From assembly GCA_902494465.1 (NCBI GenBank), contig CABUTH010000020.1, forward strand, positions 1 to 18,006: a DNA stretch of 18,006 nt, given 5' to 3'. Source of the stretch: an uncultured Collinsella sp. Its GTDB lineage: Bacteria > Actinomycetota > Coriobacteriia > Coriobacteriales > Coriobacteriaceae. Positions 630 through 14,340 of the stretch are shown piece after piece (positions within the stretch are counted from its first letter, which is position 1; the number at the start of each line of letters is the position of its first letter). The notes beneath the pieces were generated by a model, which did not search any database, had not been told where the DNA came from, and worked only from the letters and a program-made list of their open reading frames with translations. The position numbers were made by a program, and so were the translations under genes.

Positions 630-655
630 CTTCGACCCAAGAGATTGGTGAATCA

Positions 656-1039
656 ATGAGAAAGATAGTTGTGGCGAGCCATTCCCTTCTCGCCCAGGGC
701 TTCAAGGACACCCTCGAGTTCCTTACGGGTAAGAGCGACGCCGTCAACGCCGTGTGCGCCTACGTGAACGACAACGGCGAGGGGCTCGACGCGGCGGTCG
801 AGGCTGCGCTTTCGGGCACTGACGAGGTCGTCGTTCTTACCGACGCGCTCGGCGGCAGTGTGAACCAGCGCTTCTCCCGCTTCGCCTCCGACCGGATCCA
901 CGTGATCGCGGGTGTCAACCTCCCGCTCGCCATGACGGTCGCGCTCGCGCGCCCCGACGAGAAACTCGACTTCGACGCCCTCGTCGACGAGGCGCGCCAG
1001 CAGATCGTCTACGTGAACGGTGCCAGTTCCGCCGAGTGA
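656..1039 (+). CDS. PTS mannose-type IIA component
   Basis: A 127-residue cytoplasmic phosphocarrier of the EIIA-Man fold. It takes phosphate from HPr and passes it to IIB. The N-terminal strand and loop MRKIVVASHSLLAQGF carries the expected phospho-accepting histidine at residue 9, and VVVLTDALGGSVNQ near residues 58-71 matches the second conserved loop of the family. The length suits a stand-alone IIA domain with no fused IIB. The gene sits 26 bases after IID and 27 bases before the GH172 gene, inside one operon. The ATG at 656 aligns with the family start; its ribosome site is weak, so translational coupling to IID is plausible. Confidence 0.88.
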   Translation: MRKIVVASHSLLAQGFKDTLEFLTGKSDAVNAVCAYVNDNGEGLDAAVEAALSGTDEVVVLTDALGGSVNQRFSRFASDRIHVIAGVNLPLAMTVALARPDEKLDFDALVDEARQQIVYVNGASSAE

Positions 1040-1066
1040 GAAGACGACGAATAGAGGAGGTCGACG

Positions 1067-2191
1067 ATGAGAGAGTTCCTTAAAGACGTGTGGATGCACG
1101 GCGGTGAGGAAAGCCGCGCCATCACCCCCGAGAACATCACGGGCGAGAAGGGCCGCGCCGCCATGTCGGCCAGCCACCTCGGCGTCGGCCGCAAGGGCTC
1201 GTGCTGCGTGCCCCTTGAGTCCGGCGAGACCATCACGCTCGCGGACATCGAGGGCCCCGGCATCATCCGCCACATCTGGATGACCGTCCCCGACAAGACC
1301 GCCGCCGGCAGCTTCGTCATGCGCGACCTCGTGCTGCGCTTCTACTGGGACGACGAGGAGACCCCCTCGGTCGAGTGCCCTGTCGGCGACTTCTTCTGCA
1401 ACGGCTTCGGTGAGCGCGCCATCGTCAACTCGATGCCCATCTGCGTGAACCCGACGGGCGGCATGAACTGCTACTTCGAGATGCCTTTCAGGAAGCACGC
1501 CAAGGTCACGCTTACGAGCGAGCACCCCGGGTTCATTAAGTACATCTTCTACACGTTCAACTACGCGCTCACCGACGTGCCGGACGACGCCATGTACTTC
1601 CACGCCCGTTTTAACCGCGAGCGCAGCACCCGCAGGGGCGTCGACTACACCGTGCTCGACGGCGTGCGCGGTAAGGGCTACTACGTCGGCACCTACATGG
1701 CCCTGTGCGCTCTGGAGCGCTATTGGTGGGGCGAGGGCGAGATGAAGTTCTTCCTCGACGGCGACGAGGAGTTCCCCACGGTCACCTCGACGGGAGCCGA
1801 GGACTACTTCGGCGGTGCCTGGGCCTTCCTCGACAGGCCGCCCCACGCGCTGCCCGAGGCGCAGTGCTTCAACACACTGTTCGCCGGCTACCCGTACCGC
1901 TCGACGCGCGACGCCACGCGCGACCGCTTCAGCGCGGGCAAGCCGAACCCGAACCCGATGCTCGCGACCAACGACGACGCGCTGCCCAGGCACGGCCTCT
2001 ACAGGTGGCACCTTCCCGACCCGATCTCGTTCAAGGAGGACCTGCGCGTGACGTTCCAGGACCTCGGCAACGACGACATCAAGCTCTACGAGCGCGAGGA
2101 CGACATCTCCACCGTCGCCTACTGGTACCAAAGCGAGCCGCACGCCGTGCTCGCCCCGTTTGCCGCAAGGCAGGACCGCGTGCCCAGGTAG
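1067..2191 (+). CDS. DUF2961 / glycoside hydrolase family 172 protein, cytoplasmic
   Basis: A 374-residue protein with the DUF2961 signature, now classed as GH172, whose studied members act on alpha-D-fructofuranosides (including difructose dianhydride I) or D-arabinofuranosides. Diagnostic stretches are SHLGVGRKGSC near residues 36-46, GPGIIRHIWMT (63-73), VGDFFCNGFGE (106-116), WWGEGEMKFFLDGD (220-233) and TGAEDYFGGAWAF (242-254). The two catalytic carboxylates of the family lie in the last two blocks, so E223 or E225 and E245 are the likely pair (assignment inferred). There is no signal peptide, so the enzyme acts in the cytoplasm on something the PTS brings in. A strong GAGGAGG ribosome site precedes the ATG. 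A hairpin terminator follows the stop, so the downstream kinase may be made at a lower level. Confidence 0.85.
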   Translation: MREFLKDVWMHGGEESRAITPENITGEKGRAAMSASHLGVGRKGSCCVPLESGETITLADIEGPGIIRHIWMTVPDKTAAGSFVMRDLVLRFYWDDEETPSVECPVGDFFCNGFGERAIVNSMPICVNPTGGMNCYFEMPFRKHAKVTLTSEHPGFIKYIFYTFNYALTDVPDDAMYFHARFNRERSTRRGVDYTVLDGVRGKGYYVGTYMALCALERYWWGEGEMKFFLDGDEEFPTVTSTGAEDYFGGAWAFLDRPPHALPEAQCFNTLFAGYPYRSTRDATRDRFSAGKPNPNPMLATNDDALPRHGLYRWHLPDPISFKEDLRVTFQDLGNDDIKLYEREDDISTVAYWYQSEPHAVLAPFAARQDRVPR

Positions 2192-2219
2192 GGTCGCCTC
2201 GAAACAAGCCAACGTTATG

Positions 2220-2256
2220 GGCGCCCGCGGTTGACCATGACTGCGGGCGTTTCTTT
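2220..2256 (+). terminator. Rho-independent terminator or attenuator between the GH172 and kinase genes
   Basis: A nine-base-pair GC-rich stem (2222-2230 with 2241-2249, one G-U pair) with a ten-base loop is followed by TTTCTTT. The kinase ribosome site begins only five bases later, leaving no room for a separate promoter beyond the hairpin. Partial read-through is therefore the simplest reading. Confidence 0.7.
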
Positions 2257-2270
2257 GTAAAGAGGATCAC

Positions 2271-3155
2271 ATGAGCGAAAAGCAAATGAGGCTCGGCGCC
2301 CTCGAGGCCGGCGGGACCAAGATGGTCTGTGCCGTGGTGTCCGGCGACGGCGAGGTCCTCGACCGTATGGAGACCCCGACGCTTACGCCCGCCGAGACCG
2401 TCCCGCAAATGGTCGAGTGGTTCACCGCCCGCAATGTGGACGCGTTGGGCATCGGCGCCTTCGGCCCGACCTGCGTCGACCCCAACGATGAGCGCTACGG
2501 TTCCATCCTCCAGACGCCCAAGCTCGCGTGGCGAGGCTATGGTCTTCGCGCCGCTTTCGCCGACGCCCTCGGGATTCCGGTGACCTACGACACGGACGTG
2601 AACGTTGCCTGCCTCGGCGAAGTGGTCTTCGGCTGCTGCAAAGGGCTCGAGGACGCCGTCTACGTAACCATCGGCACCGGCGTGGGCGCGGGCGTCATGT
2701 GCGCGGGCAGGCTCCTTCACGGCATGCTGCACCCCGAGGCCGGCCACATGCTGGTAAGGATTCGTCCCACCGAGGAGGGACGCTGCGTCTGCCCGAGTCA
2801 CGCGAGCTGTCTCGAGGGCCTCGCCTCCGGCCCCGCCATCGCCGCGCGCTGGGGAAAGCCCGCGGCCGAGCTCGCGGACAACGCTGAGGTGTGGGCGCTC
2901 GAGGGGGATTATCTGGGGCAGATGTGCGCGAACCTCGTGCTCATGTACTCGCCTCGCCGCATCGTCCTCGGCGGCGGCGTGATGCACCAGGAGCAGCTCT
3001 ACGGCATCGTCCGCAAGAAGACCCTCGAATATCTGGGCGGCTACATCCAGACTGCCGAGCTTAAGGACATGGAGAGCTACATCTGCGCCCCGGGCTGCGG
3101 CGGCGACCAAGGAATCCTTGGCGCGGCCGAGCTGGCAAGAAGGACGCTCGCGTAA
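2271..3155 (+). CDS. ROK-family sugar kinase, fructokinase-like
   Basis: A 294-residue ROK kinase that phosphorylates a free hexose with ATP in the cytoplasm. The ATP site motif EAGGTK is at residues 12-17. The catalytic aspartate is D109 in DTDVNVACLGE, and IGTGVGAG is at 134-141. The zinc site of the ROK group is intact: H159, then C174, H177 and C180 in CPSHASCLEG. Overall it is closest to the short zinc-dependent fructokinases such as YdhR/GmuE/ScrK of Firmicutes, so fructose is the best guess; mannose or another hexose is possible. An AGAGG ribosome site sits six bases before the ATG. It is the last gene of the PTS-GH172 locus and would use the sugar released by the glycosidase. Confidence 0.85.
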   Translation: MSEKQMRLGALEAGGTKMVCAVVSGDGEVLDRMETPTLTPAETVPQMVEWFTARNVDALGIGAFGPTCVDPNDERYGSILQTPKLAWRGYGLRAAFADALGIPVTYDTDVNVACLGEVVFGCCKGLEDAVYVTIGTGVGAGVMCAGRLLHGMLHPEAGHMLVRIRPTEEGRCVCPSHASCLEGLASGPAIAARWGKPAAELADNAEVWALEGDYLGQMCANLVLMYSPRRIVLGGGVMHQEQLYGIVRKKTLEYLGGYIQTAELKDMESYICAPGCGGDQGILGAAELARRTLA

Positions 3156-3187
3156 CTTGCGCTCTCTCCGCCATACAACGCGTTAAG

Positions 3188-3240
3188 AAAAGATGAGCGC
3201 TTCTTGCCAATTGGGCGGCAAGAAGCGCTCATCTTTTGCA
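3188..3240 (+). terminator. Strong rho-independent terminator after the ROK kinase
   Basis: A perfect 21-base-pair stem (3188-3208 with 3217-3237) with an eight-base loop ends in TTTT on the + strand and begins with AAAA, so it can work in both directions. It closes the sugar operon and also faces the degV remnant coming from the right. Confidence 0.92.
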
Positions 3241-3271
3241 TTTGTTTTTGGGGCAGGATGCCCCGCCTCCG

Positions 3272-3498
3272 CTAGAGTCTCTGGACCGCCACACCCACGA
3301 GGTTTGGACCGGTGTGGACAAGAAGCGCGGGGCTGATGTCGGAGCGGACGACCTCCACCGCGTTGGCCACGCGCTCGCGCAGGGCCTGCTCCATGCGGTC
3401 ATAGAGGCCGGCGTAGGGTGAGGTGCGGCTCACGGCAAAGCGCACCTTGGGGTGCTTCTCGACGATGGCGGCGATGAGCTTGACCTCGGTGCGATGCG
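3272..3498 (-). pseudogene. C-terminal remnant of a DegV-family protein
   Basis: About 75 residues on the - strand resemble only the C-terminal end of DegV fatty-acid-binding proteins: a helix/strand segment (VRFAVSRTSPYAGLYDRM), then SDISPALLVHTGPNLVGVAV, where HTGP and the following glycine are the conserved end of the fold that contacts the lipid. The N-terminal two-thirds of a usual protein of about 280 residues are missing. To the right the frame runs directly into IS200-type tnpA sequence, so the left part of degV was lost in a rearrangement. The in-frame ATG at 3514 lies inside the tnpA piece, read in a different frame, and is not a native start. Confidence 0.65.
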
Positions 3499-3690
3499 GT
3501 ACTTGCACAGCCATTTCGTGTGCGCGAGGCTGTTGGCTTTCTGGGCCACAGCAATCACCTTCCCCCTAGCATGATGACCTGAACAATCCTCATGCTAGGG
3601 GGAAGGTTTTGTCGCGTAGCGGAAATTGGCCTCCACCCGCTGAGCGGGTGGCTTTCTATGCCGCGCGGCACGGACTAAAGTCCATGAATA
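3499..3690 (-). mobile_element. IS200/IS605-type element remnant: left end plus first 17 codons of tnpA
   Basis: Read on the - strand from a GTG at 3549, 17 codons give VAQKANSLAHTKWLCKY, the N-terminus of IS200-type TnpA; the usual continuation HIVF is replaced by degV sequence, so the HUH-transposase catalytic part is gone. Just upstream is a perfect 17-bp inverted repeat (3558-3574 with 3590-3606) whose arm next to the gene contains the ribosome site GGGGGAAGG. Hiding the ribosome site in a hairpin is typical of IS200. Further out are an 8-bp stem with a TGA triloop (3633-3651) and two short palindromes (3660-3669 and 3672-3683), as expected of a left end recognised as single-stranded hairpins. 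The outer boundary near 3690 is approximate. Confidence 0.7.
3558..3606 (-). repeat. 17-bp perfect inverted repeat, IS200-type ribosome-site hairpin
   Basis: The arms 3558-3574 and 3590-3606 are exact reverse complements around a 15-base loop. On the - strand the second arm ends GGGGGAAGG, eight bases before the GTG of the tnpA piece, so folding would hide the ribosome site and also block transcription entering from outside. Confidence 0.85.
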
Positions 3691-3797
3691 AAACAATCCC
3701 GCGGGTATTTGGGCGCGCACGCATTGACCTTGCCCTTGCGCGCCCAATATGCGCCGTAAAAGCCGTCTTCTTCAACGTCAAAGTGAACGCGCTTCAT
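3675..3797 (-). pseudogene. 5' remnant of a hydrolase gene, possibly acyl-CoA thioesterase/BAAT-like
   Basis: An ATG at 3797 lies nine bases after the stop of the third methyltransferase gene, with a GAGAGA ribosome site, so it was the next gene of that operon. The frame gives MKRVHFDVEEDGFYGAYW and then sequence that belongs to the IS200-type left end, closing at a stop inside the palindrome at 3672-3683 after 40 codons. The short N-terminus, especially EEDGFYGAYW, resembles small alpha/beta hydrolases annotated as acyl-CoA thioester hydrolase/BAAT C-terminal proteins. This rests on about 18 residues only, so the family is tentative. The truncation itself is clear. Confidence 0.4.
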
Positions 3798-3806
3798 TTT
3801 TGTCTC

Positions 3807-4637
3807 TCAAAATCTTATTTTCACGATTTGCATTTTCATCCCGTTGTCACCGACCCTTGCGAGAAACCGGAAAAAGCCGCTGACAGAAGGGTCCCTCAAA
3901 TCGTTGTAGCCCAGCATATAGCCGCGACTTGTGACCTGCAGACGGCTGTCCCACGTGCCGATTTCCTTGGCGGCATCCGAAACCGCAAAATATGCCCCTA
4001 CATCCTTGATTTTTGCAGTCTTAAGCCATGTTTTTGCGATCATCTTTACTGCCGTCCGATTGGCAGCATCAAAGACCAGCACACCGCCGGGGAAAGCGTC
4101 TGCCATCCCCCGTACCAGTTCCCGGACCTGCTGGGTCAGAAAGTAATAGAACACCCCGGAGGCAAAGAACACCGCCCCGCCGGAGGCATCGATTTTGCTA
4201 AACCATGCGGTGTCTTTCAGGTCGCAGGGGATATTATGTTCTCGATCCTCGGCGGGCAGTAACTGCTGCCGCAAGGCAATCACATCCGGGAAGTCCAGAT
4301 TGTAGATCTTGCATCTACCGTTGTCGCAGGTTCTGCCGGTGTTGTCCAGCCCGCAGCCCAGATTGACCATCGCCGCATTGGGGTGGCCTTTCAGGTAATC
4401 CCGCACCTCGAAAGCAAGATCACTCTGCCGTGTGGCCACCTCCAGCGCACCAAAGCGCTGCATCAGGCTGCGGGAGTTTTTCTCTGCCTCTGAAAAGTCG
4501 TAGTCGATTTGGTCGAGCAGACGAACCGCTGTTTCATCCCTATAAAGGTTCGGGTACAGCTCCGTACACAGCTTTCGGGAATACAGCGGGAGGATCAGCG
4601 TCTCCTGAACGGTGTTTTTCTCAATTTTACATTTCAT
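3807..4637 (-). CDS. Class I SAM-dependent methyltransferase, leucine-carboxyl-methyltransferase-like (COG3315 type)
   Basis: A 276-residue protein with the layout of the LCM/PPM1-like O-methyltransferases often linked to polyketide or small-molecule methylation. The SAM-binding glycine loop is VNLGCGLDNTGR (residues 91-102), followed by the acidic stretch YNLDFPDVI (112-120) that binds the SAM ribose. The N-terminal part with repeated charged helices is the family's substrate-side cap. The ribosome site GAGGAAG precedes the ATG at 4637 well. It is third in a - strand operon after two other methyltransferases and was followed by a hydrolase now broken by an IS200-type remnant. Base composition is lower in GC than the flanking operons, which suggests transfer. 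The substrate is unknown. Confidence 0.75.
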   Translation of the reverse strand: MKCKIEKNTVQETLILPLYSRKLCTELYPNLYRDETAVRLLDQIDYDFSEAEKNSRSLMQRFGALEVATRQSDLAFEVRDYLKGHPNAAMVNLGCGLDNTGRTCDNGRCKIYNLDFPDVIALRQQLLPAEDREHNIPCDLKDTAWFSKIDASGGAVFFASGVFYYFLTQQVRELVRGMADAFPGGVLVFDAANRTAVKMIAKTWLKTAKIKDVGAYFAVSDAAKEIGTWDSRLQVTSRGYMLGYNDLRDPSVSGFFRFLARVGDNGMKMQIVKIRF

Positions 4638-4648
4638 AGGTTTCTTCC

Positions 4649-4714
4649 TCAGTGAATAAAAATTGTCACAATTGCCGCCAGCACAGCCGCTATGACCGTC
4701 ATGCCTATCGCCAT
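4649..4714 (-). CDS. Possible very small membrane peptide between two methyltransferase genes
   Basis: The 115-base gap between the second and third methyltransferase genes is open in one - strand frame, and its end encodes a clean hydrophobic helix of about 24 residues (LHMAIGMTVIAAVLAAIVT and on) finishing IFIH. The only ATG outside the upstream gene gives 21 residues, with no convincing ribosome site. It may be a real single-span peptide, perhaps starting inside the upstream gene by coupling, or a decayed membrane-protein tail. No family is recognised. Confidence 0.2.
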   Translation of the reverse strand: MAIGMTVIAAVLAAIVTIFIH

Positions 4715-4752
4715 GTGCAGGATGGATGCAAAAATACCCGTGCTTGATGCCC

Positions 4753-5358
4753 TTACTTCCGCGCCGTGACGCAGAGCCACTTTTTCTTTTTGTGTATCTG
4801 CACCTCGTGAAAACCCGCCTGCTCCAGACATGCCTTTAATTCGATGTCCTTGTAGATGGTCATGCCGCCGATGATCTGCGTCCACCTCTCGTCCTTGTCC
4901 GTATCGCCATTGCTCTCGTTGCAGATAAGAATTGTCCCGCCTGGCTTCAGCGTCCGCCAGACCTCACGGAAGCATTGGGGCAAATCAGGCCAAAAATAGA
5001 CGGTCTCAAAGGCCGTGACAGCATCGAAGTAGCTATTCTCAAACGCCATATCCGCCACACTGCCTTGCAGAACGGCGCAACGCCCCTCCTGAATTGCAGT
5101 TCGGTTGAGCTTTCTAGCCTTCTCCACGCTGACGGGCGAATAGTCGATGCCCTTGACGACGCCATGCGGGCATTTTTTCAGCAGCCGTTTTATGTTTGCC
5201 CCGCCGCCGCAGCCGCAATCCAGCACCTTGGCATTTGGCGCAAGTCGTAGAAATTGAAGTCCCCACTGCGCCACAGGGCTGTGGCCCAGATTCATCATGG
5301 CAACCATAAGTTTTCCGCCGAGGCCCACGGGCTTGCGGGTGTTTTCAAAGAACGACAT
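4753..5358 (-). CDS. Class I SAM-dependent methyltransferase (Methyltransf_11 type)
   Basis: A 201-residue Rossmann-fold methyltransferase. SAM motif I is VLDCGCGGGANI (residues 45-56), the acidic residue after strand 2 lies in GIDYS (70-74), and the post-motif LKPGGTILICNE is clear. The start at 5358 (MSFFENTRKP) is chosen because a GGAGGG ribosome site lies a few bases upstream; a longer in-frame ATG at 5388 lacks one and lies deep inside the upstream gene. The gene overlaps the end of the preceding methyltransferase by 14 bases, so translation is probably coupled. It is middle in the three-methyltransferase operon. Substrate unknown. Confidence 0.8.
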   Translation of the reverse strand: MSFFENTRKPVGLGGKLMVAMMNLGHSPVAQWGLQFLRLAPNAKVLDCGCGGGANIKRLLKKCPHGVVKGIDYSPVSVEKARKLNRTAIQEGRCAVLQGSVADMAFENSYFDAVTAFETVYFWPDLPQCFREVWRTLKPGGTILICNESNGDTDKDERWTQIIGGMTIYKDIELKACLEQAGFHEVQIHKKKKWLCVTARK

Positions 5359-5974
5359 CTGGTCCCTCCGATTTCGTGCATTCCGCATAGGTCAACGGGA
5401 ACGAAGCCTTCAGCACCGCGCTTTTCTGCACCGCCCAGCCGTTTTGACGCAGGAAACACAGGTATTCCTCGCTTGTCCACCTGCTGTGGAGGGGGAATCC
5501 TGCCATACTCATGAAAAAGGCTTTTACCTTGCCGGAAACCGAGTTTCCCGCGTGGGTGAAGGTTGGCGCGATGAGCACGCCGTCGTCCTTCAGCACCCGC
5601 CTGATTTCTTGCAGGGCCTTTTCTGGATGCGGCACTATGTGAAGCGCGTTGGACGCGATCACCACTTCGAAGGACTTCTGTGCATAGGGCAGGCGGAACA
5701 TATCTTGTACGGAAAAGTGCAGCTTTGCGGATTGATTGTCCCGCTTTGCTTCAAGGATCATCTGTGCAGAAGCGTCTGTAGCCTCGATGTGTGCCGCCGC
5801 ATTCACGATGCTCTTTGCGATAAGCCCCGTGCCGGTGGCAACCTCCAGTACGGTTTTTGCTTTCACTACCGGCCTGATCAGTCCATACATCTTCTCATAC
5901 GCCGCCCGGTCGTTTCGCATGAAACGGTCGTATCGACCGGCATTCTTGTCCCAGAAGCCCTTGCGTTCGTGCAT
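5345..5974 (-). CDS. Class I SAM-dependent methyltransferase
   Basis: A 209-residue methyltransferase, first gene of the - strand trio. SAM motif I is VLEVATGTGLIA (residues 42-53), the acidic residue is in EATDAS (D67), and ALHIVPHPEKALQEIRRVLKDDGVLI has the usual motif IV region. The N-terminus HERKGFWDKNAGRYDRFM is like the small ubiE-related enzymes of Firmicutes. The ATG at 5974 is chosen, with GGGGG eight bases upstream; a TTG at 5989 in frame is possible. Two perfect or near-perfect palindromes precede it and may be operators. Its composition is less GC-rich than the flanks. Confidence 0.78.
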   Translation of the reverse strand: MHERKGFWDKNAGRYDRFMRNDRAAYEKMYGLIRPVVKAKTVLEVATGTGLIAKSIVNAAAHIEATDASAQMILEAKRDNQSAKLHFSVQDMFRLPYAQKSFEVVIASNALHIVPHPEKALQEIRRVLKDDGVLIAPTFTHAGNSVSGKVKAFFMSMAGFPLHSRWTSEEYLCFLRQNGWAVQKSAVLKASFPLTYAECTKSEGPDVVL

Positions 5975-5991
5975 GGCTATCGCCCCCAAAC

Positions 5992-6009
5992 AGTTAGAGC
6001 CATCTAACT
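5992..6009. promoter_or_regulatory. Operator-like palindrome upstream of the methyltransferase operon
   Basis: AGTTAGAGCCATCTAACT has seven-base arms that are exact complements around GCCA. It lies 18 bases before the first methyltransferase ATG, next to a TATAGT-like -10 on the - strand, the position of a repressor site. No regulator gene is adjacent. Confidence 0.5.
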
Positions 6010-6033
6010 ATAACACGCGAATCGTGCAGCAAG

Positions 6034-6049
6034 ATAAGGCTAGCCTTAT
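6034..6049. promoter_or_regulatory. 16-bp perfect palindrome upstream of the methyltransferase operon
   Basis: ATAAGGCTAGCCTTAT is its own reverse complement. It lies 60 bases before the methyltransferase start, roughly where the -35 region or an upstream operator would be. With the palindrome at 5992-6009 it brackets the probable promoter. Confidence 0.45.
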
Positions 6050-6059
6050 TTTCTTGGCA

Positions 6060-6360
6060 AAGACGCATCTCTCCGGCTTTCGCCTATAGCGGCGCGAGCC
6101 AGATGCTAGGCTGGAGCTGAAGAAGGGGCTTGGCGGACAGGTAGGTCGATTCCGGTTCCCGGAACGGTGGTCCAGCCAATTACACCAGGGCTCTAGTCAT
6201 TGAGTGGGAATAGAAAATTCCTTAGTTATGGGGGTATAAATTTGATTTCCTTCAGGATAAACCCCCATGACTATATGAATTGACCTGCTGACTTCAATGA
6301 AGATTGGAGGGTAACGGTCAGGGGTGACGGCCCAGCGAGTGTTATTTTGCGAGCTATGCG
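6060..6360. other. Non-coding stretch with one long hairpin
   Basis: I see no convincing gene on either strand. The base composition is mixed, with an AT-richer centre. The only clear structure is an inverted repeat, 6225-6235 with 6261-6271 (11 pairs, one G-U, arms carrying TATGGGGGT), around a 25-base AT-rich loop. It could be a mobile-element end or a terminator-like stem. Shorter palindromes such as GTTCCCGGAAC (near 6158) are present. No tRNA can be folded from it. Confidence 0.4.
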
Positions 6361-6362
6361 CA

Positions 6363-6390
6363 TTGAAAGCGACCTTTCGTGGTATAAACT
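6363..6390 (+). promoter_or_regulatory. Candidate promoter of the type III toxin-antitoxin locus
   Basis: TTGAAA at 6363 and TAAACT at 6385 are separated by 16 bases; TATAAA at 6383 is an overlapping alternative with shorter spacing. Transcription would begin near 6396, giving an RNA of about 115 bases before the hairpin at 6490-6513. Confidence 0.4.
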
Positions 6391-6395
6391 ACTTG

Positions 6396-6513
6396 CCGGA
6401 AGCCGCGGCTTTCAGAGTACGGCTTACGTGTACGTTTAACCTCCGTGGGCGACGGGGTGCCGCAAGGCGTAGAATATCGCCCACCTGTAGGGGCCTGCAG
6501 CGATGCGGGCCCC
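6396..6513 (+). ncRNA. Candidate type III antitoxin RNA with terminator hairpin
   Basis: The leader before the toxin gene is rich in structure. A large hairpin (6445-6484) has an 8-bp outer stem (6445-6452 with 6477-6484) and an inner stem (6457-6461 with 6466-6470) capped by GCAA. A second hairpin (6490-6513) has a 10-bp stem capped by GCGA and acts as the likely attenuator before the toxin ribosome site. Type III systems have this order: promoter, antitoxin RNA, leaky terminator, toxin. I could not find clean tandem repeats of 35-45 bases, the usual hallmark, so the RNA identity rests on position and structure. Confidence 0.45.
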
Positions 6514-6538
6514 GCTTCGTATGAAGGGGGCGTAACCG

Positions 6539-6988
6539 ATGAAGATCGTATCCATCTCTCAGGATTTCTTCGACCTCGTCGAGGGCGACCGCGAGCTCAT
6601 GCTTAAGCACAATCGCCCCTGCATCGTGGTGGTGAGGCTGCGTTTCCGCGGGAAGCGCAGGGACTTCGCCGTGCCGCTGCGTTCCAACATCGCCCCTAAC
6701 GTGCCCAAAGACCAGTACTTTGCGTTGCCACCCCGCCCCACGACGCGCCCCGGCTGCCGCCACGGCATCCACTACATCAAGATGTTCCCCATAACCAAGG
6801 CCTACCAGCGCCGCTTTAGGACCGAGGGCTCGGCCTACTACGAGACACTCCAGCGCATCATCGACGGCAACACCAAGCGCATTGTCTCCGAGTGCCAGGC
6901 ATACCTCGACCGCTACGAGCGCGAGGGAAGGCCTCGCTTTGCCGTCGACATCGACCGCATCGTGGGGCTGCTGGAGGGCGAGAAGTAG
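6539..6988 (+). CDS. ToxN/AbiQ/TenpN-like type III toxin (endoribonuclease)
   Basis: A 149-residue protein that follows the ToxN/AbiQ/TenpN layout. An N-terminal block (SQDFFDLVEGDREL) precedes the hydrophobic strand and platform RPCIVVVRLRFRGKRRDFAV into PLRSNI (residues 46-51), equivalent to the APLTSPK/IPLRSNI segment of known toxins. Then comes HYIKMFPIT (78-86), where ToxN has its FMIPI strand, and a final helix YETLQRIIDGNTKRIVSE (101-118) like the QLQFIRANSDKI helix of ToxN. Such toxins cut mRNA or the antitoxin precursor and are held by the antitoxin RNA; many cause abortive infection. AAGGGGG at 6524-6530 is the ribosome site. A GNRA-capped hairpin just upstream fits the locus type. 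The protein is GC-rich in codon use, so it is well adapted to the host. Confidence 0.6.
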   Translation: MKIVSISQDFFDLVEGDRELMLKHNRPCIVVVRLRFRGKRRDFAVPLRSNIAPNVPKDQYFALPPRPTTRPGCRHGIHYIKMFPITKAYQRRFRTEGSAYYETLQRIIDGNTKRIVSECQAYLDRYEREGRPRFAVDIDRIVGLLEGEK

Positions 6989-7012
6989 GGCACCTCGGCT
7001 CAGTCTCGAGCC

Positions 7013-7035
7013 ATGCGGAGTCGCTCCGCATTTTT
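7013..7035 (+). terminator. Rho-independent terminator after the toxin gene
   Basis: A seven-base-pair stem (7013-7019 with 7025-7031), five-base loop, then TTTTT. It closes the toxin transcript 25 bases past the stop codon. Confidence 0.8.
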
Positions 7036-7196
7036 GAACGCTGCGTGTGCGTCCCAAATACTTGAGAAACAAGCTGTGAAGTGCGGTGGCGCGACCGTGC
7101 CCGTGCATAGCCGTCACCATTAGCGTCTACGCGGCGTCGGCTTCAAGTGGAACTGGCGCCGCTGCTGTATATGGTTTGCCTTGCTGCAAATGGCGA

Positions 7197-7616
7197 TCAG
7201 TGCCCACGATGCTTCTGCTTGCGCTTCAGCTTTCGCTGCTCGAAGCGCGCCTCCGCCTCATCCGCGCGACGCTGGCTTCTTGCTTGAGCCGACTCCCGCT
7301 TCATCGCTTCCCGCTGTGCCGCGAGAGCCTGCTGCGCCTTGGTGCTCATCGCTGGCTGCTTGAGGGCTTTCGCCGCCTCGCGAGCGCGCCGCTTGGGGTT
7401 CTTCGCGGGCTTGCTTGCCTCAGCCGGTTCGCCACCGAAGAACGAGAGCTTCTCCCATTCACTTGTAACGAATCGCAGAATCTCCTCATCGGACGGCTCC
7501 GCGCCGAAGACGATGCGGGCGACGCCATACCTTCCGCCCTCGACGTGCTCCGCCAGCCCGACCCAGAATTGGCCGTCGTGATATACGGTCAGGGTGGACG
7601 ACACGCTGATCTGCAT
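7197..7616 (-). CDS. yjdF: YjdF family protein (DUF2992)
   Basis: A 139-residue protein of the YjdF family. The N-terminal part has the typical STLTVYHDGQFWVGLAE and VARIVFGAEPSDEEI; the C-terminal half is a highly charged, coiled-coil-like Lys/Arg/Glu/Ala segment (NPKRRAREAAKALKQ, STKAQQALAAQREAMK) ending KHRGH, as in other members. The start at 7616 is chosen for the AAAGGAGG ribosome site at 7624-7631; a longer frame to 7784 lies in the leader. The molecular function is not known. In Firmicutes the gene is controlled by the yjdF riboswitch, which binds azaaromatic compounds, so a role in handling such compounds is inferred. A matching structured leader is present here. Confidence 0.85.
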   Translation of the reverse strand: MQISVSSTLTVYHDGQFWVGLAEHVEGGRYGVARIVFGAEPSDEEILRFVTSEWEKLSFFGGEPAEASKPAKNPKRRAREAAKALKQPAMSTKAQQALAAQREAMKRESAQARSQRRADEAEARFEQRKLKRKQKHRGH

Positions 7617-7629
7617 GGCTGGTTCCTCC

Positions 7630-7739
7630 TTTATGTAGATGACCATGCAGAGAAGGGACAACCAAGGAGGCAGGTTACTGATGCGGACTCCCGCACGCCC
7701 ACGACTACCCGACGGGGACTGTGTTTTCATCTCTGATGT
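7630..7739 (-). promoter_or_regulatory. Probable yjdF riboswitch in the leader of yjdF
   Basis: The leader can close into one domain: CATCAGAGA at 7738-7730 pairs with TCTCTG(C)ATG at 7653-7644 (nine pairs, one bulged C). Inside lie a small hairpin TGCGGGAGTCCGCA, an AACC/GGTT stem enclosing TGCCTCC, and unpaired GATGAAAACACAG. Position, length and the purine-rich joining segment fit the yjdF motif (azaaromatic riboswitch). The ribosome site AAAGGAGG lies just beyond the closing stem. A covariance-model search was not possible, so the class is assigned by context and fold. Confidence 0.55.
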
Positions 7740-7743
7740 CCGC

Positions 7744-7752
7744 ATTGTAGCA
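7744..7752 (-). promoter_or_regulatory. Extended -10 promoter of the yjdF leader
   Basis: On the - strand TGCTACAAT gives a TG extended -10 with hexamer TACAAT at 7749-7744. Transcription would start near 7738, exactly at the first base of the closing stem of the leader RNA. The -35 region is poor, as is usual for extended -10 promoters. Confidence 0.5.
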
Positions 7753-7832
7753 CGCGTGAATGCGCCCGGCATCGCTGCCGACATGGCGCGACTGGGATTC
7801 GCTCCCCGACGCGCCCTTGTGTATATTGTCTT

Positions 7833-7875
7833 CTCGGTTTCGAAACTTTAGAAATATTCGAGTTTCGAAACCGAG
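7833..7875. promoter_or_regulatory. 15-bp inverted repeat with nested TTTCGAAA palindromes
   Basis: CTCGGTTTCGAAACT (7833-7847) and its exact complement (7861-7875) flank a 13-base AT-rich core. Each arm contains the 12-bp palindrome GGTTTCGAAACC, and the core carries the related TTTAGAAA. It ends ten bases before the ATPase ATG and overlaps its probable promoter, so an operator for self-control of the ATPase gene is likely; a hairpin in the RNA is an alternative. Confidence 0.6.
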
Positions 7876-7884
7876 AGGGAGCGG

Positions 7885-8454
7885 ATGATGGCATGGGTGG
7901 ACCGCACTACGTACATGGAGCGGCTTTGGGCGCTCGAGGGCACCCGGGACATCAAGGTGATCACGGGGATGCGCCGCTCTGGTAGGTCCGAGCTTATGAA
8001 GGCGTTCTCCGCCTCCGTTGCTCGGAGGGACCCATCCTCCAACAACGTCTACATCGATCTGCTGGACCTCGACAACGAGCCGCTGCTTGAGTATCACACG
8101 CTGTATCACGAAATCATCGAGCGGCACAAAGAGGGCACCCGCAACCGTCTCTTCATCGACAAGGTGCAGCTGTGCGAGGGTTTCGAGAAAGCAATTAACA
8201 GCATTCACGCACGTGGCGGATGGGATATCTACCTCACGGGATCGAACGCGTTCCTCCTGAGTTTGGACCTGGCAACCCTGTTCACAGGGCGCCACGGGGA
8301 GGTACACATCCTCCCCTTCAGCTTCGGCGAATACCGCTCCTACTTCGACGAGCAGGGGGCCGTCGACGACGACTTCGACGGATTCATCAGGCGCGGCGGG
8401 CTCGCCGGGTCCTACGATTACGATGACATCTCGGAGTCGTACGGTTTCCTTCGG
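7885..8454 (+). pseudogene. Truncated AAA ATPase (AAA_14/DUF4143 family) with degenerate Walker motifs
   Basis: About 190 residues match the N-terminal AAA_14 domain of the large ATPases that normally carry a C-terminal DUF4143 domain and run to about 400 residues. The domain order is clear: Walker A region VITGMRRSGRSELM (residues 26-38), Walker B region LFIDKVQ (89-95), IYLTGSNAFLLS (115-126), FTGRHGEVHILPFSFGEY (133-150) and GGLAGSY (171-177). The Walker A lysine is arginine (GMRRSGRS rather than GxRRxGKS) and the Walker B glutamate is lysine (FIDKVQ rather than FIDEVQ), so ATP hydrolysis should be lost. Family similarity stops near 8454 and the frame runs on antisense into the alcohol dehydrogenase end at 8483. 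DUF4143 is absent. This is a decaying gene left by a rearrangement at the ADH end. Confidence 0.75.
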
Positions 8455-8482
8455 CGCGGGCGGATTGGGACCGAGCGCCGAT

Positions 8483-9646
8483 CTAGAGACACTCGGTCAG
8501 AATCTGGAACACCTCGCTGCGCTCCAGTTTCTTGGCGCAGCCGCCGGTGAGCATGCAGGTGTCCGCAACCTTGTGCAGCGTCTCGTCGGACGTGTCTGAG
8601 CCCATCTCGGCGAAGCTCGTGGGAAGCCCCATCTCGCCGATGAACGTCTGCAAGCGCTCGATGCCCTCGAGCGCCACCGTAAGGTCGTCTTTGCCCTTGG
8701 CGTCGACGCCCCACACCTCGCGCGCCCAGCGGGCGAACTGCTCGGGCGCCTCAGGGGCAAGGTGACGGTAGAGCGCAGGATGGATGACCGCGAGCCCCAT
8801 GCCGTGGTTGGTGTGGGTGTACGCGCCGTACTGGTGCTGGATCATGTGCGCCTGGAAGTCCGTTGACTTGCCGATCTTGAGCACGCCGTTCTCGGCCATG
8901 GCGGAGTCATAGACGAGCTCGCTTCGGGCATCGAGATTCTGGTCGTCGTCCGAGATGACGCGCATGTTGCGGATGACGTTGCGCTGGATGGCGAGGTTGA
9001 TGTCGTCGGTGACGTTGCGTCCGCGCGGGCTTCCGAAATAGCTCTCCATGCAGTGCGAGAGCGTGTCGAACGCGCAGCTCATGAACTGCGCGTGCGGTAC
9101 GGTGAGCGGGAGCGCCGGGTCGAGCGCCGCCCACATGGGCATTGCCCCCAGATAGGCGCCCTTCATGTGCGTCTCCTCGTTGGTGATGACGGCGCCGTTG
9201 TTCTGCTCGGCGCCCGTACCGGAGAGTGTCACGATGCAGCCCATGGGGATGAACGAGCTCGGCATCTTGCCGTCGGCGTGCTCGAACGTCTCGATGTCCT
9301 CGTCAAGCATCGCCTGCGCGGAGACCACCTTGCAGCAGTCGAAGACCGACCCGCCGCCGACGGCGAGAATGATGTCGACCTGCTCCTCGCGTGCGAGCGC
9401 AGCGCCTTCCTGGCACTTCTCGTAGGTCGGATTGGGCATGATGCCGCCGAAGTCCACCACGCGCTTGCCCGCGCTCGTGAGCTTATCGACCACGTGGCCG
9501 TAGACGCCGGTTCGTTTGACCGAGCCTCCGCCGTAGGCGAGCATCACTGTCTTGCCCATGGCGCCCATCTCGGCGTCGAGTGCCTGGTCCATGGCCCCCT
9601 CGCCGAAGTAATTTCTGACCGGGTAGTCGTACGTGAATGAGTTCAT
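8483..9646 (-). CDS. Iron-dependent alcohol dehydrogenase (group III, YqhD/butanol dehydrogenase-like)
   Basis: A 387-residue cytoplasmic NAD(P)H-dependent enzyme that interconverts aldehydes and alcohols. The N-terminal dinucleotide domain has MLAYGGGSVKRTGVY (35-49) and AVGGGSVFD (95-103). The metal ligands fall in the expected places: D194 and H198 in FDTLSHCMESY, H267 in DFQAHMIQH and H281 in TNHGMG. The start at 9646 (MNSFTYDYPVRNYFGEG) is taken because AGGAGG precedes it and the conserved N-terminus begins there; a longer frame to 9721 overlaps the upstream gene. It lies 44 bases after the aldo-keto reductase gene on the same strand, so the two likely form one operon reducing aldehydes or ketones. 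A short inverted repeat (8451-8457 with 8475-8481) follows the stop without a T-tract. Confidence 0.9.
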   Translation of the reverse strand: MNSFTYDYPVRNYFGEGAMDQALDAEMGAMGKTVMLAYGGGSVKRTGVYGHVVDKLTSAGKRVVDFGGIMPNPTYEKCQEGAALAREEQVDIILAVGGGSVFDCCKVVSAQAMLDEDIETFEHADGKMPSSFIPMGCIVTLSGTGAEQNNGAVITNEETHMKGAYLGAMPMWAALDPALPLTVPHAQFMSCAFDTLSHCMESYFGSPRGRNVTDDINLAIQRNVIRNMRVISDDDQNLDARSELVYDSAMAENGVLKIGKSTDFQAHMIQHQYGAYTHTNHGMGLAVIHPALYRHLAPEAPEQFARWAREVWGVDAKGKDDLTVALEGIERLQTFIGEMGLPTSFAEMGSDTSDETLHKVADTCMLTGGCAKKLERSEVFQILTECL

Positions 9647-9690
9647 GGCAGTTCCTCCTAGTAAGTTATCAGTGCGGTCTGACCGCTCGT

Positions 9691-10542
9691 CTACACGTTG
9701 CGCACGAGCCCGGACATCCATTCGATGGTGGCGGGGTCGTGGTGGTCGAAGAACGCGCTGCGCCCGGTGTCGAGCGCGGCGATGGCGACCATCTCGTCTT
9801 CGCCCAGCGCGAAGTCGAAGACGTCGAAGTTCTGCTCCATGCGATCGCGGTGCGTGCTCTTAGGGATGCAGACCACACCGCGCTGCAGCAGCCAGCGCAA
9901 CACGACCTGGGCGACCGTCTTGCCGTGCGCCTCGCCGATGCGAGCGAGGACCTCGTTGCGGAAGAGGTCGTTTCTGCCCTCCGCAAAGGGCGCCCAGCCC
10001 TCCATGGCCACCTCCTTGCCGGCCATGTACTCCTGCGCCTCGCGCTGCTGGAAGAACGCGTTGCACTCGACTTGGTTCACGGCGGGGGCGATGCGGTTGA
10101 ACGAGATGAGGTTTGCAAGGTGATCGGGGTAGAAGTTAGCTGTACCTATGGCGCGGATAACGCCCTGCTCGTAGAGCTCCTCCATGGCGCGCCACGCGCC
10201 GAAGACGTCGCCGAACGGCTGGTGGATGAGGTAGAGGTCGACGTAGTCGAGCCCCAGCCGCCTGAGCGACGCGTCGAAGCCGCGCTTGGCCCCCTCGTAG
10301 CTCGCATTCGACATCCACAGCTTAGTCGTCACGAACACCTCGTCGCGCGGCAGGCCGCTCGCGCGAACGGCGGCCCCGACCGCCTCCTCGTTGGCGTAGC
10401 TTGCGGCCGTGTCGAGCAACCGGTAGCCGACCGAGAGCGCGTCCTCCACGGCGCGCTGGCATTCCGCGGCGTCCGGGATCTGGTACACGCCGAAGCCGAG
10501 CTGGGGCATCCTGACGCCGTTGTTCAAGGTGATGTAGTCCAT
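9691..10542 (-). CDS. Aldo-keto reductase, 2,5-diketogluconate reductase-like
   Basis: A 283-residue (alpha/beta)8-barrel oxidoreductase using NADPH to reduce aldehydes and ketones. The catalytic tetrad is intact: D44 and Y49 in [12 protein letters not shown]74 in TTKLW and H107 in [24 protein letters not shown] near residues 228-245 holds the NADPH phosphate-binding residues. The start at 10542 ([18 protein letters not shown]) is preceded by AAGGAAGG; an upstream in-frame ATG at 10560 lacks a ribosome site. It is first in a two-gene operon with the iron-dependent alcohol dehydrogenase and faces away from another AKR operon at 10828 across a 285-base control region. The substrate is not known. 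Confidence 0.9.
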
Positions 10543-10827
10543 GGCCTTCCTTTCTCGCAACTTGACGTATCCACCGTACGAGGGACGCCGCGCCGGCGGA
10601 AGTTTCCGTTGGTGAGGGTCCTATAACGCTGGGGTGCGCACGGGGTTATAACCCGCGGGTTCAGGGCACCGCACCAAAGGGGGATTCCGCCGAGCGCTCC
10701 GAGGTCGTACGCTTGGCGATGAGAGAGCGCAAGCCACCGACAGGGGGTGTGCCTAACGGAACTCGATGAACGGGCGGACGTGGGCTTCGCAAACAAATGA
10801 CGGATATCATAGACAGGGAGAACAGGA
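10543..10827. promoter_or_regulatory. Divergent control region between two AKR operons
   Basis: No gene is seen in these 285 bases. A perfect 12-bp palindrome GGGTTATAACCC (10643-10654) has a TATAAC half-copy 20 bases to its left (10622-10627), a spacing typical of paired regulator half-sites. The same TATAACC word occurs in the LysR-AKR intergenic region (17752-17758) and before the flavodoxin gene (complement at 13725-13731). It may be the operator of both operons. Confidence 0.4.
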
Positions 10828-11817
10828 ATGGACAAGCGCGTTTTGGGAAAGAGCGGCATCGAAGTCAGCCCGCTCGGCATGGGCTGCATGGGAATCACGC
10901 ACGCGAGCGGAGACCCGATGCCCGACGACGAGGCCGTGAGCGTCGTCCGTCAGGCCCACGAGATGGGCTATACCTTCTTTGACACGGCGGAGTGCTACGT
11001 TGGCACGTGCGCCGACGGGACCGAGGCGCACAACGAGGACGTGGTGGGCAAGGCGCTCGCGCCCGTGCGCGACGAGGTTGTCATTGCCACCAAATTCGGC
11101 GTCACGCACGCCCCGGACAAGACCATCCTCGTGGACTCGCGCCCCGAGGTTATCCGTATCTCGGTGGAGAATAGCCTGCGCCGGCTGCGCACCGACCACA
11201 TCGACCTCTACTACCAGCACCGAATCGACCCAAAGGTCGAGCCTGAGGTCGTTGCAGGCACCATGGCAGACCTCATCAAGGAAGGTAAGATCCGCGCCTG
11301 GGGAATCTCCGAGGCGACGGAGGAGTACCTGCGTCGCGCCGATGCGGTGTGCCCCGTCTCCGCCGTCCAGAACCGCTACTCCATGATGGCGCGCTGGAAC
11401 GAATCCCTGTTCCCCGTGCTCGAGGAGCTGAATGTCGCCCTCGTGGCATTCTCTCCCATGGCGAACGGCTTTCTGACGGGCGCGTACAGCCACAACACCA
11501 GATTCGAGGGCGCCCAAGACTACCGCGATGGCATGCCGCAGTACACAGAGGAAGGCGAAAGGCGCGCCGAGCCCCTCATGCGGTTCGTTCGCGAGCTGGC
11601 TGAGCTGCACGCGGCGACGCCCGTCCAGGTCTCCCTTTCCTGGATGCTCGAGAAGAAGCCCTATATCATCCCCATCCCGGGCAGTCGCAAGCCCGAACGA
11701 CTGCTCGAGAACCTCGGTGCCGCCGAGGTCAGGCTCACCGACGATGAGGTTGCCAAGGTCGACGGGCTGCTCAACGGACTCGACCTCATGGTATTCGGCG
11801 GGCACGCGGTAAGGTAG
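10828..11817 (+). CDS. Aldo-keto reductase, YakC/AKR13-like
   Basis: A 329-residue aldo-keto reductase of the longer type that begins RVLGKSGIEVSPLGMGCMG. The tetrad is D52 and Y57 (FFDTAECYVG), K89 (IATKFG) and H131 (YYQHRID). The C-terminal PIPGSRKPERLLENLGA is the NADPH-binding segment. GGGAG eight bases before the ATG is the ribosome site. It heads a + strand operon: the RibD-C reductase gene starts six bases after its stop and the lipoprotein hydrolase overlaps that one. It differs clearly from the two shorter AKRs nearby, so it is not a recent duplicate of them. Likely acts in the cytoplasm on a carbonyl compound. Confidence 0.9.
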   Translation: MDKRVLGKSGIEVSPLGMGCMGITHASGDPMPDDEAVSVVRQAHEMGYTFFDTAECYVGTCADGTEAHNEDVVGKALAPVRDEVVIATKFGVTHAPDKTILVDSRPEVIRISVENSLRRLRTDHIDLYYQHRIDPKVEPEVVAGTMADLIKEGKIRAWGISEATEEYLRRADAVCPVSAVQNRYSMMARWNESLFPVLEELNVALVAFSPMANGFLTGAYSHNTRFEGAQDYRDGMPQYTEEGERRAEPLMRFVRELAELHAATPVQVSLSWMLEKKPYIIPIPGSRKPERLLENLGAAEVRLTDDEVAKVDGLLNGLDLMVFGGHAVR

Positions 11818-11823
11818 GGAGCC

Positions 11824-12531
11824 ATGAACATTAGACCCTATGTCGTCTGTCACATCTTTGCCGGGCTCAACGGCCGCATCGACGGCGCGTACATGCTCGA
11901 CCCCGCTGCCTCGCCCGCACGCGCCGCGTACTCTCGCATGCAGGTCGAGTTCGGGGCGGACGCCGTGGCGTACGGGGCCGTGACCACGAAGGGCTTCGTC
12001 GGGTCGCGCCCCCTTGCGCTCGGTACCCACGGGAGCGCGCCCAAGGGGGACTTCGTGGCGCCTCACGCCGAACGATCGTTCTACGTCTCCGTCGACCCCG
12101 CCGGGGAGATTGCATGGGATTCTGCGACCTATCGTCGCGCCGGCCGTGCGAACGCGCACGTCATCGAGGTCCTCACCGAGGCGGCGTCGCCGGCGTATCG
12201 CGACTATCTGCGAGAGCGCGGCGTCTCATACGTGCTTGCCGGCTCGCGCGGGCTAGACCTCCCGCTCGCCCTGCGCAAGCTGCGCGAGCTTTTCGGCATC
12301 GAGCGCCTGCTCGTGTGCGGCGGCGGAAAGACGGACATGTCGTTTCTTGCCGCGGGCGTGCTTGACGAGCTGAGCCTCGTTCTCTCCCCGACGGTCTCGG
12401 GGGAGCCCGAAACGGCTTCCGTCTTCGACGAGATGCCTCGCTCAGCCGGCGGTTCGCACGCATTCTCGCTCGAGCGCGTCGAGCGCCTTGCCGGCGACGG
12501 CCTCCACCTCGTCTATCGAGTGCAGCGATGA
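11824..12531 (+). CDS. RibD C-terminal domain reductase (dihydrofolate-reductase fold)
   Basis: A 235-residue protein with the RibD_C/DHFR-like fold. N-terminal YVVCHIFAGLNGRIDG and the glycine-rich LLVCGGGKTDMSFLAAGVLDELSLVL (about residues 160-185) match the substrate and NADPH-binding regions. There is no deaminase domain, so this is not a full RibD; stand-alone members are often NADPH reductases of unknown substrate. The gene follows the AKR by six bases and its stop overlaps the next ATG by four (ATGA), so the three are translated together. A riboflavin gene cluster is not present, which argues against a riboflavin role. Confidence 0.85.
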   Translation: MNIRPYVVCHIFAGLNGRIDGAYMLDPAASPARAAYSRMQVEFGADAVAYGAVTTKGFVGSRPLALGTHGSAPKGDFVAPHAERSFYVSVDPAGEIAWDSATYRRAGRANAHVIEVLTEAASPAYRDYLRERGVSYVLAGSRGLDLPLALRKLRELFGIERLLVCGGGKTDMSFLAAGVLDELSLVLSPTVSGEPETASVFDEMPRSAGGSHAFSLERVERLAGDGLHLVYRVQR

Positions 12532-13529
12532 TGTCGCGCCGTTCGTTTCTGGAGGCTGCCGCGTGGTTGGCCGCTGCGGGCAGCCTTGCCGGCTGCTCGT
12601 CGGACGGGACCGCCGGAGTCGCGCGCGGCTCCGCTCCGGGCACGGTCACGGCGGACACTCCCATCTACGACGTCATCAACAACCCTTTGTTCGATGGCTA
12701 CGGGCGTCTGCTCTTCCCCACAACGCTCCATCCGCCGACAGAGGATATGGCGCTCGACGACCTTTCCGCTTGCCTGCCGTGGTACTCGGAGATCCATACG
12801 AGCACCACGGTCGATATCGTCAGCTATCTGCTGTCAGAGCGCGCAGCGGAACGGACGGTCTTCTACGACATCTACACGGATGCCGAGAAGACCGCCGACC
12901 CCTCGCTCGCCAACACGGGGCTCTTCCGCTTCGCTGCCGAGGGAGTGGGCGGCGCGTCTGCACCGTTTGCCGTGGTAAGCGCGGGCGGCGGATTCGCCTA
13001 CGTCGCTGCCATGCACGACTCCTTCCCGCACTGCCTGCACTTGGCTCGCGCCGGTATCAACGGGTTCGCAGTGATTTACCGTCCGGATGCACGGCTTGCC
13101 TGCGAGGACTTGGCCCGTGCCGTCTCCTTCATCTTCGAGCATGCCGATGAGCTCGGCGTGGACACGTCGGGCTATTCGCTGTGGGGCGGCTCGGCCGGTG
13201 CGCGCATGGCGGCATGGGTCGGCGGCTACGGCCCGGCCGCCTTTGGCGCGCCGGCAGGAACGCCCCAGCCCGCGGCGGCCATCATGCAGTACACCGGCAT
13301 GAGCGAGCTGACGGGTGCCGACCCCGCGACCTACACCTGCGTAGGTGATCGCGACGGCATCGCCAGCTGGCGCACAATGCAGGGACGTATCGACGCGCTC
13401 GCCAAGACGGGCGTGCCCACGGAGTTTCATGTTTACGAAGGCCTGAGCCACGGCTTTGGCCTGGGTGTCGACACCGTGGCAGAGGGCTGGATCGACGATG
13501 CCCTCGCGTTTTGGAAGGCGCAGCGATGA
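12528..13529 (+). CDS. Tat-exported lipoprotein alpha/beta hydrolase (esterase-like)
   Basis: A 333-residue hydrolase. The N-terminus MMSRRSFLEAAAWLAAAGSL with lipobox LAGC (C23) is a Tat signal ending in a lipidation site, so the folded enzyme sits on the outer face of the membrane. The body has the esterase layout: oxyanion region SAGGGF (151-156), nucleophile S222 in LWGGSAGA, probable acid D274 or D276 in VGDRDG and H308 in GLSHGFG. This is like small BD-FAE/acetyl-esterase lipoproteins of Coriobacteriia. The gene overlaps the RibD-C gene by four bases. A second Tat-lipoprotein hydrolase sits at 14341-15249 in the facing operon. The substrate is unknown; an ester or small acyl compound is likely. 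Confidence 0.85.
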   Translation: MMSRRSFLEAAAWLAAAGSLAGCSSDGTAGVARGSAPGTVTADTPIYDVINNPLFDGYGRLLFPTTLHPPTEDMALDDLSACLPWYSEIHTSTTVDIVSYLLSERAAERTVFYDIYTDAEKTADPSLANTGLFRFAAEGVGGASAPFAVVSAGGGFAYVAAMHDSFPHCLHLARAGINGFAVIYRPDARLACEDLARAVSFIFEHADELGVDTSGYSLWGGSAGARMAAWVGGYGPAAFGAPAGTPQPAAAIMQYTGMSELTGADPATYTCVGDRDGIASWRTMQGRIDALAKTGVPTEFHVYEGLSHGFGLGVDTVAEGWIDDALAFWKAQR

Positions 13530-13662: not shown

Positions 13663-13817
13663 GGGCTGCGGCGGTTGTGTCAGCGATGGAGCCGATGCGC
13701 CGGTAGTGGCCGGACCACACCCACGGTTATAAGCTGCCTACGATCAGGAACTTCTCACCGGATCTTCTCACGCCTATGGTAAAGGCGGTATCAGACAATA
13801 CGTAAGGAGTGAGACGT

Positions 13818-14332: not shown

Positions 14333-14340
14333 TCGTTCGC

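Follow-up and report, generated by a model that had tools for sequence, protein, structure and literature searches.

A very probable type III toxin-antitoxin locus of Collinsella with two unlike pseudoknots upstream of a TenpIN-like toxin

Background

In the part of the review literature that was accessible, type III antitoxins are described as runs of like repeats, and the available portion of one such source gives 34-36 nucleotides (nt) and 2.8-5.5 copies for the repeats of ToxIN and AbiQ, as opposed to the two unlike units of the locus described here (PMC5086642). This locus lies in an 18,006-nt stretch of DNA from an uncultured Collinsella sp. (GenBank assembly GCA_902494465.1, contig CABUTH010000020.1, positions 1 to 18,006 of the forward strand), hereafter the window, in which an earlier reading of the letters (the original prediction) had proposed a probable type III toxin-antitoxin locus at 6363-6988. 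It is very probably a type III toxin-antitoxin of a TenpIN-like family whose scores fall short of the current model's cut-off, and there is good support for the view that it works in the manner of a type III system. The computed support consists of the gene order, the predicted fold of the toxin, the pairing and covariation of the RNA and the co-occurrence of RNA and toxin. The locus is carried by relatives in Coriobacteriia and Bacillota. Its protein escapes Pfam, PADLOC and the NCBIfam cut-off, its RNA escapes Rfam, and it raises the points of why there are two unlike units and whether phages carry an antidote.

Results

The order of promoter, structured RNA, hairpin and toxin gene that had been proposed is borne out, with weak evidence for the promoter. 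The elements are the following:

6363..6390, + strand: promoter-like site TTGAAA, 16 nt, TAAACT (scan; weak)
6395..6425, + strand: putative antitoxin unit 1, an H-type pseudoknot in which 6395-6398 pairs with 6406-6409 (stem 1) and 6400-6405 with 6420-6425 (stem 2); its third loop is short
6426..6440, + strand: linker ACGTGTACGTTTAAC, conserved, the proposed place of processing
6441..6483, + strand: putative antitoxin unit 2, an H-type pseudoknot in which 6441-6445 pairs with 6453-6457 (stem 1) and 6446-6452 with 6477-6483 (stem 2)
6484..6489, + strand: conserved tail after unit 2, ending in TGTA (alignment of 35 loci)
6490..6513, + strand: GC-rich hairpin in the gap between RNA and toxin (10 base pairs (bp), GCGA loop), proposed attenuator
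6524..6529, + strand: ribosome site AAGGGG (sequence, by eye)
6539..6988, + strand: toxin gene, open reading frame (ORF) of 149 amino acids, predicted ToxN/AbiQ/CptN fold, TenpIN-like (sequence, family models, predicted fold)

The promoter scan of 6200-7100 on the two strands gave two sites against 0.4 in shuffles, and TGG-TATAAA at 6380-6388 also reads, by eye, as an extended -10 element. Between the promoter-like site and the hairpin lie about 95 nt of RNA-like sequence. The two units are visible as conserved elements in the 260 nt upstream of the toxin in the window and its relatives, and they were placed in the window by a script seeking H-type pseudoknots. The original prediction had seen no evident tandem repeats and had suggested a single-unit antitoxin; the first point has to be corrected and the second is not supported, as two diverged tandem pseudoknot units of different shape are present and show covariation. 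Repeat finders reported no direct repeats and nothing useful upstream of the toxin, since the units differ in sequence and such programs are blind to them. The two GNRA-capped hairpins that had been announced do exist: one, GCC-GCAA-GGC (6459-6468, by eye), is a 3-bp hairpin in the long third loop of unit 2, which also contains TAGAATA, and the other is the hairpin at 6490-6513.

Covariation and presence in relatives support the structure of the RNA. The covariation alignment is made up of 35 loci, the window and 34 others that were picked because both units were visible, with the structure set by hand; excluded were near-identical Collinsella copies (except L034), any locus with a different array and any that was short or broken, and this selection biases the paired percentage upward, which stands at 97.9% of 839 cells. 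Two-sided changes affect 138 cells, compared with 38.6 +/- 6.7 in shuffles (0/500 as high), and only 32.9-47.5% of cells are paired when the partners are slid by 1-3 columns. In unit 1, every stem 2 cell is paired and all six pairs show two-sided changes, and the small third-loop hairpin of unit 2 is 86.5% paired. A hairpin occupies the equivalent place before the toxin in 34/35 loci; at least five T follow within 9 nt in 8/35, a count lowered by the script, which pairs T into the stem. Rfam covariance models gave no match up to E 5 in the toxin-RNA region (6000-7200).

Two different pseudoknots stand side by side in all 35 aligned loci, which come from Coriobacteriia and Bacillota. The third loop of unit 1 measures 7-10 nt and that of unit 2 16-21 nt (35/35), and the sequence of stem 2 also differs between the units in every row (35/35); the near-identical direct repeats that are a usual trait of type III systems are thus absent from these rows. 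Stem 1 is GCCG/CGGC in unit 1 of 17/35 rows, and TTCCG or CTCCG with CGGGG in unit 2 of 34/35. The linker after unit 1 reads ACGTGTATGTTTAAC in 16/35 rows and is similar in the other rows shown, the tail after unit 2 reads AC-N-TGTA in 23/35, and both units end in a like AC-N-TGTA motif. Other arrays exist outside the alignment: L092 has three like units upstream of the toxin, three-unit arrays are also present at L062, L093, L099 and L105, and two Enterococcus faecalis plasmids (L140 and L142) carry A-B-A arrays, of which the outer units were recognized by the stem-2 test and the middle one by eye. The toxins of these two plasmid loci are distant relatives annotated as hypothetical protein. 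Distant toxin relatives occur in 24 plasmid records (16 from Apilactobacillus, 8 from Enterococcus); among the three plasmid loci inspected, the one from Apilactobacillus has no unit and the two from Enterococcus are those with A-B-A. The unlike pair of units may be a feature of one branch.

The homologue search shows that the ORF at 6539-6988 is a conserved protein, with 439 of 468 candidates accepted as homologues at E <= 0.01 (120 listed). R48 S49 N50 I51, H75 G76 H78 and K81 are invariant in 53 toxin sequences. They form the most conserved part of the protein, into which the ToxN/AbiQ/TenpN motifs quoted in the original prediction fall, and structure prediction and comparison assign it the ToxN/AbiQ/CptN fold. 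The window protein has no match to PF13958 (ToxN_toxin) at E <= 1, and 2/53 relatives match that model weakly (best E 0.019). The protein is a predicted ToxN-fold toxin, a fold typical of toxins that bind pseudoknot RNA; it is predicted to cut RNA and would be a toxic RNase. The TenpN and CptN models had been recommended as a check. The nearest named family is TenpIN (NCBIfam NF047358; E 8.9e-8, 32.5 bits, for a cut-off of 90), whose model is matched at E <= 0.01 by 53/53 relatives. The CptIN model (NF047359) is matched weakly by 10/53 relatives and, at E <= 1, not by the window protein. No Pfam family matches the window protein near any cut-off, nor do the PADLOC models match it. Among the 53 relatives, the matches consistent with the fold are ToxN_toxin (2/53), PemK_toxin (1/53) and AbiQ (6/53, best 9.1e-7). 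Other low-scoring matches were taken as chance: Pfam ERM_C for the window protein and, among the relatives, BrxC helical, SSXT and others, DNA polymerase III delta (6/53), and Csx23 and others.

The linkage of RNA and toxin was studied in 76 loci where the toxin start was usable (68 of 78 genome loci, four viral, three plasmid and the window), from which L053, L089 and L097 were dropped for having less than 190 nt upstream. The remaining 73 loci are not independent, as they include about a dozen near-identical Collinsella copies and L102 repeats L058. By the stem-2 test, at least one unit is present in 71/73 of them and at least two in 56/73 (one to three units per locus), and 20 shuffles per locus gave units in 3/1460. 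Copies 95-100% identical to the window occur in Collinsella records, in agreement with the Coriobacteriia-like host that had been proposed. The genus of the nearest genome compared, which shares 35% of the window's sampled words, was represented by 43 genomes. The toxin is present in 16/43 and the unit-2 pattern in 15/43, 14 of these with the toxin; in the remaining two toxin genomes (G042 and G021) the RNA is present with AGAGTA instead of AGAATA. One genome of the Collinsella genus (G035) has a two-unit RNA without toxin, about 1.6 kilobases (kb) from a contig end (L174), and stem 2 of its unit 2 contains a mismatch. Of the 16 toxins, five seem broken or lack a normal start (G019, G021, G024, G037 and G041).

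Units of this kind are also found in viral contigs. In IMG/VR, a strict unit-2 pattern retrieved 11 stretches, three of them with a window-family toxin in the examined DNA, and a wider pattern, which leaves all stem-2 letters open except one, retrieved 32, compared with four for the reversed pattern. All six stem-2 pairs are kept in 30/32 stretches; L119 keeps five and L121 three, and the latter was rejected as a chance match. The examined DNA contains a toxin in 11 of the 32 stretches and none in 21, which leaves 20 toxin-free units once L121 is removed:

L107, L108, L110-L112, L114-L116, L119, L120, L122, L125, L126, L129-L132, L136-L138: toxin-free viral units (n=20)

Four of them (L112, L119, L126 and L129) have less than 600 nt of downstream sequence, and some repeat the same sequence (L112/L115, L120/L122, L125/L137/L138). 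In the alignment of 16 of the 20, from which repeats were dropped, 98.9% of 176 cells are paired and 22 two-sided changes were counted against 7.3 +/- 2.0 in shuffles (0/500); the five pairs with two-sided changes (mean 3.7; 82/500) and the ten further pair types (mean 9.8; 312/500) show no excess over shuffles. A TGTA-like tail, which lies outside the search pattern, is kept in many of these 16 units. The toxin-free units belong to the unit-2 type, and most of the 16 aligned are single. Both units are present without toxin in L114, and a scan for unit 1 plus linker gave three viral stretches; the unit-2 pattern is present in two of these as well.

Twenty proteins neighbouring the viral units were scanned against PHROGs, of which two remained unmatched and four matched only families of unknown function. 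A terminase large subunit lies about 40 nt downstream of the unit in L108, a terminase-like protein 20 nt upstream of it in L119, and an integrase adjoins it in L110; within about 3.5 kb there are also a terminase (L125), an endolysin (L115) and exonucleases (L114, L122 and L130). The unit of L107 adjoins a gene that reads, by eye, as a cellular metK. A MazF-like growth inhibitor gene (9705-10376, + strand; PHROG 1936, E 1.3e-11) lies about 2 kb upstream of the toxin-free unit of L126. Named phage records gave no match by DNA or protein and no convincing match overall: the only match of the typed unit, to the polymerase gene of a Salmonella phage (E 3), was taken as chance, and that of the L110 region with two unannotated phage records lies at query 215-301, beyond the unit. 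Most toxin-free viral units are regarded here as candidate RNA decoys and as a candidate means of counter-defence.

The cassette had been placed between two scarred mobile regions. This holds in part: apparent gene remnants are found on both sides, but the genes immediately next to the cassette are ordinary methyltransferase genes and a yjdF gene (DUF2992):

3272-3514, - strand: DegV C-terminal piece of 80 amino acids, apparent gene remnant, left of the locus
7638-7740, - strand: azaaromatic (yjdF) riboswitch RF01764 (61.3 bits), preceding the DUF2992 (yjdF) gene at 7197-7784 (- strand)
7885-8550, + strand: truncated-looking ORF of 221 amino acids with an AAA_14 domain, apparent gene remnant, right of the locus

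Riboswitch and yjdF gene are a known pair. In 14 Collinsella loci the block in common with the window varies (e.g. 6254-7887, 6202-7205, 6320-7785 and 3735-7795), with limits partly set by contig ends; since these limits differ, the cassette occurs in more than one context. An inverted repeat with arms of 16 nt, 88% complementary and 19 nt apart, lies upstream of the promoter-like site (6223-6273), and the shared blocks of several other Collinsella loci start near it, at 6254.

Discussion

If the locus is a type III system, a single promoter would give rise to an RNA of two tandem, unlike H-type pseudoknots, followed by a hairpin and the toxin, and the hairpin at 6490-6513 would limit read-through into the toxin gene. 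By comparison with ToxIN and CptIN, the ToxN-fold endoribonuclease would cut the precursor in the conserved linker and retain the products, and the cut units would keep the toxin inactive by closing a ring with it. If the ring of CptIN, with its two toxins and two RNAs, is a guide, this ring may contain two toxins and one unit of each kind, which is the least certain step. A loss of the RNA supply, for example when a phage takes over transcription, would then free the toxin and could provide phage defence, as ToxIN_Pa, AbiQ and TenpIN_Pl lead one to expect.

Several observations weigh against this interpretation. Two loci (L086 and L141) are devoid of units by the stem-2 test. In the 35-locus alignment, the 14 pairs with two-sided changes barely exceed shuffles (mean 11.2; 4/500 as high), as do the 36 further pair types (mean 32.6; 34/500 as high). 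The minimum free energy of the window RNA is ordinary (z -1.5; 15/200 shuffles fold equally well); minimum-energy folding cannot represent pseudoknots, and the result was set aside as evidence. No T tract follows the window hairpin, and no terminator-like site was found there. The 32.5 bits of the window protein are under the TenpIN cut-off, and single and profile sequence searches of the solved structures (PDB) gave no match for the toxin. Finally, two systems of CptIN, the ring model used here, did not affect phages in tests to which the accessible part of PMC5086642 refers.

Other explanations can be proposed for the RNA. It could be a cis-regulatory leader of the downstream gene and no antitoxin at all, the protein acting otherwise; the RNA does immediately precede the gene, on its strand and with a hairpin between, but this reading is very improbable given that the protein shares its predicted fold with toxins that bind pseudoknot RNA, that one to three tandem pseudoknot units fit antitoxin arrays and not a leader, and that viral contigs contain units separated from the gene. 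Alternatively, unit 2 alone could be the antitoxin, with the toxin held by one kind of unit and unit 1 serving as a leader that aids start, stability or processing. The toxin-free viral units, of the unit-2 type and mostly single, would agree with this, a result partly built in by the unit-2 scan pattern, as would the three viral stretches found with unit 1 plus linker. Nevertheless, covariation is as strong in unit 1 (see its stem 2) as in unit 2, both units end in the like motif, and L114 has kept both units without toxin, so that we consider an antitoxin of unit 2 alone unlikely.

The toxin-free viral units could themselves be leftovers of decaying loci, or host DNA at contig edges, instead of phage decoys. 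The apparent metK next to the unit of L107, the 4/20 stretches with little downstream sequence, the toxin-free RNA of G035 with its stem-2 mismatch, the lack of a convincing match in named phage records and the two covariation measures no higher than in shuffles all point that way. Yet stem 2, which lies outside the pattern, is intact in 19/20 toxin-free units, the pairing and two-sided changes of the 16 aligned units are well above shuffles in the latter case, phage genes (terminase, integrase, endolysin, exonuclease) lie within about 3.5 kb, and the reversed pattern finds only 4 stretches against 32. An origin as debris seems less likely than not.

Returning to a type III system with two unlike units, a plausible but still tentative proposal is that of a fourth type III family, frequent in gut Coriobacteriia and Clostridia, which would combine a fixed pair of unlike pseudoknots with an asymmetric ring and be countered by phages with a complete single-unit RNA decoy. 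The conservation of two different pseudoknots in 35/35 loci makes it possible to test whether both kinds of RNA are needed in one toxin ring. The complete toxin-free units in viral contigs suggest that type III systems are countered in nature by RNA-based means; the knots in these virus-like sequences look as if some phages carried the antidote. A published phage RNA decoy, the pseudo-ToxI of PhiTE, is a phage sequence that resembles a type III antitoxin and is able to act as a decoy, and according to the available part of its description it became active only under laboratory selection: the wild type has 1.5 repeats and no full unit, and escape required expansion or recombination under selection (PMC3475682). 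By contrast, the viral units described here form complete pseudoknots. The literature covered, which takes in no preprints and few subscription papers, did not name the window family, did not mention unlike units in one antitoxin and did not report that phages naturally carry complete antitoxin units. The accessible part of PMC8040213 lists HMP2_3156, HMP2_5421 and HMP2_14852 as candidate structured RNAs that precede ToxN in Clostridiales and Leptotrichia, and one of these three could be the window RNA. The AbiF system of C. difficile is another RNA-regulated system, as far as the accessible part of its description goes (PMC12373285).

Among the known systems, ToxIN/AbiQ (PF13958; PDB 2XD0, 4ATO, 7D8O and 4GLK) differs from the window locus in that the window protein has no Pfam match. 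For CptIN (NF047359; PDB 4RMO), seven loci above the cut-off were fetched and all but L171 were read; by eye, these six carry two near-identical repeats of about 45 nt, unlike the window RNA. TenpIN is closer: it has the same gene order as the window locus, and the motif FRSSI of one canonical TenpN (L143, by eye) resembles LRSNI of the window protein. Nevertheless, this canonical TenpIN scores 174.3 bits, compared with 40-53 bits for seven members of the window family, and its RNA, in this one locus and by eye, consists of two near-identical repeats of another sequence. The genome in which it lies (G101) has both this system and a member of the window family (L148, 46.2 bits), with different RNAs. 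Since its score is under the cut-off and its RNA is different, the window locus stands outside the curated TenpIN family, whose gene order it shares.
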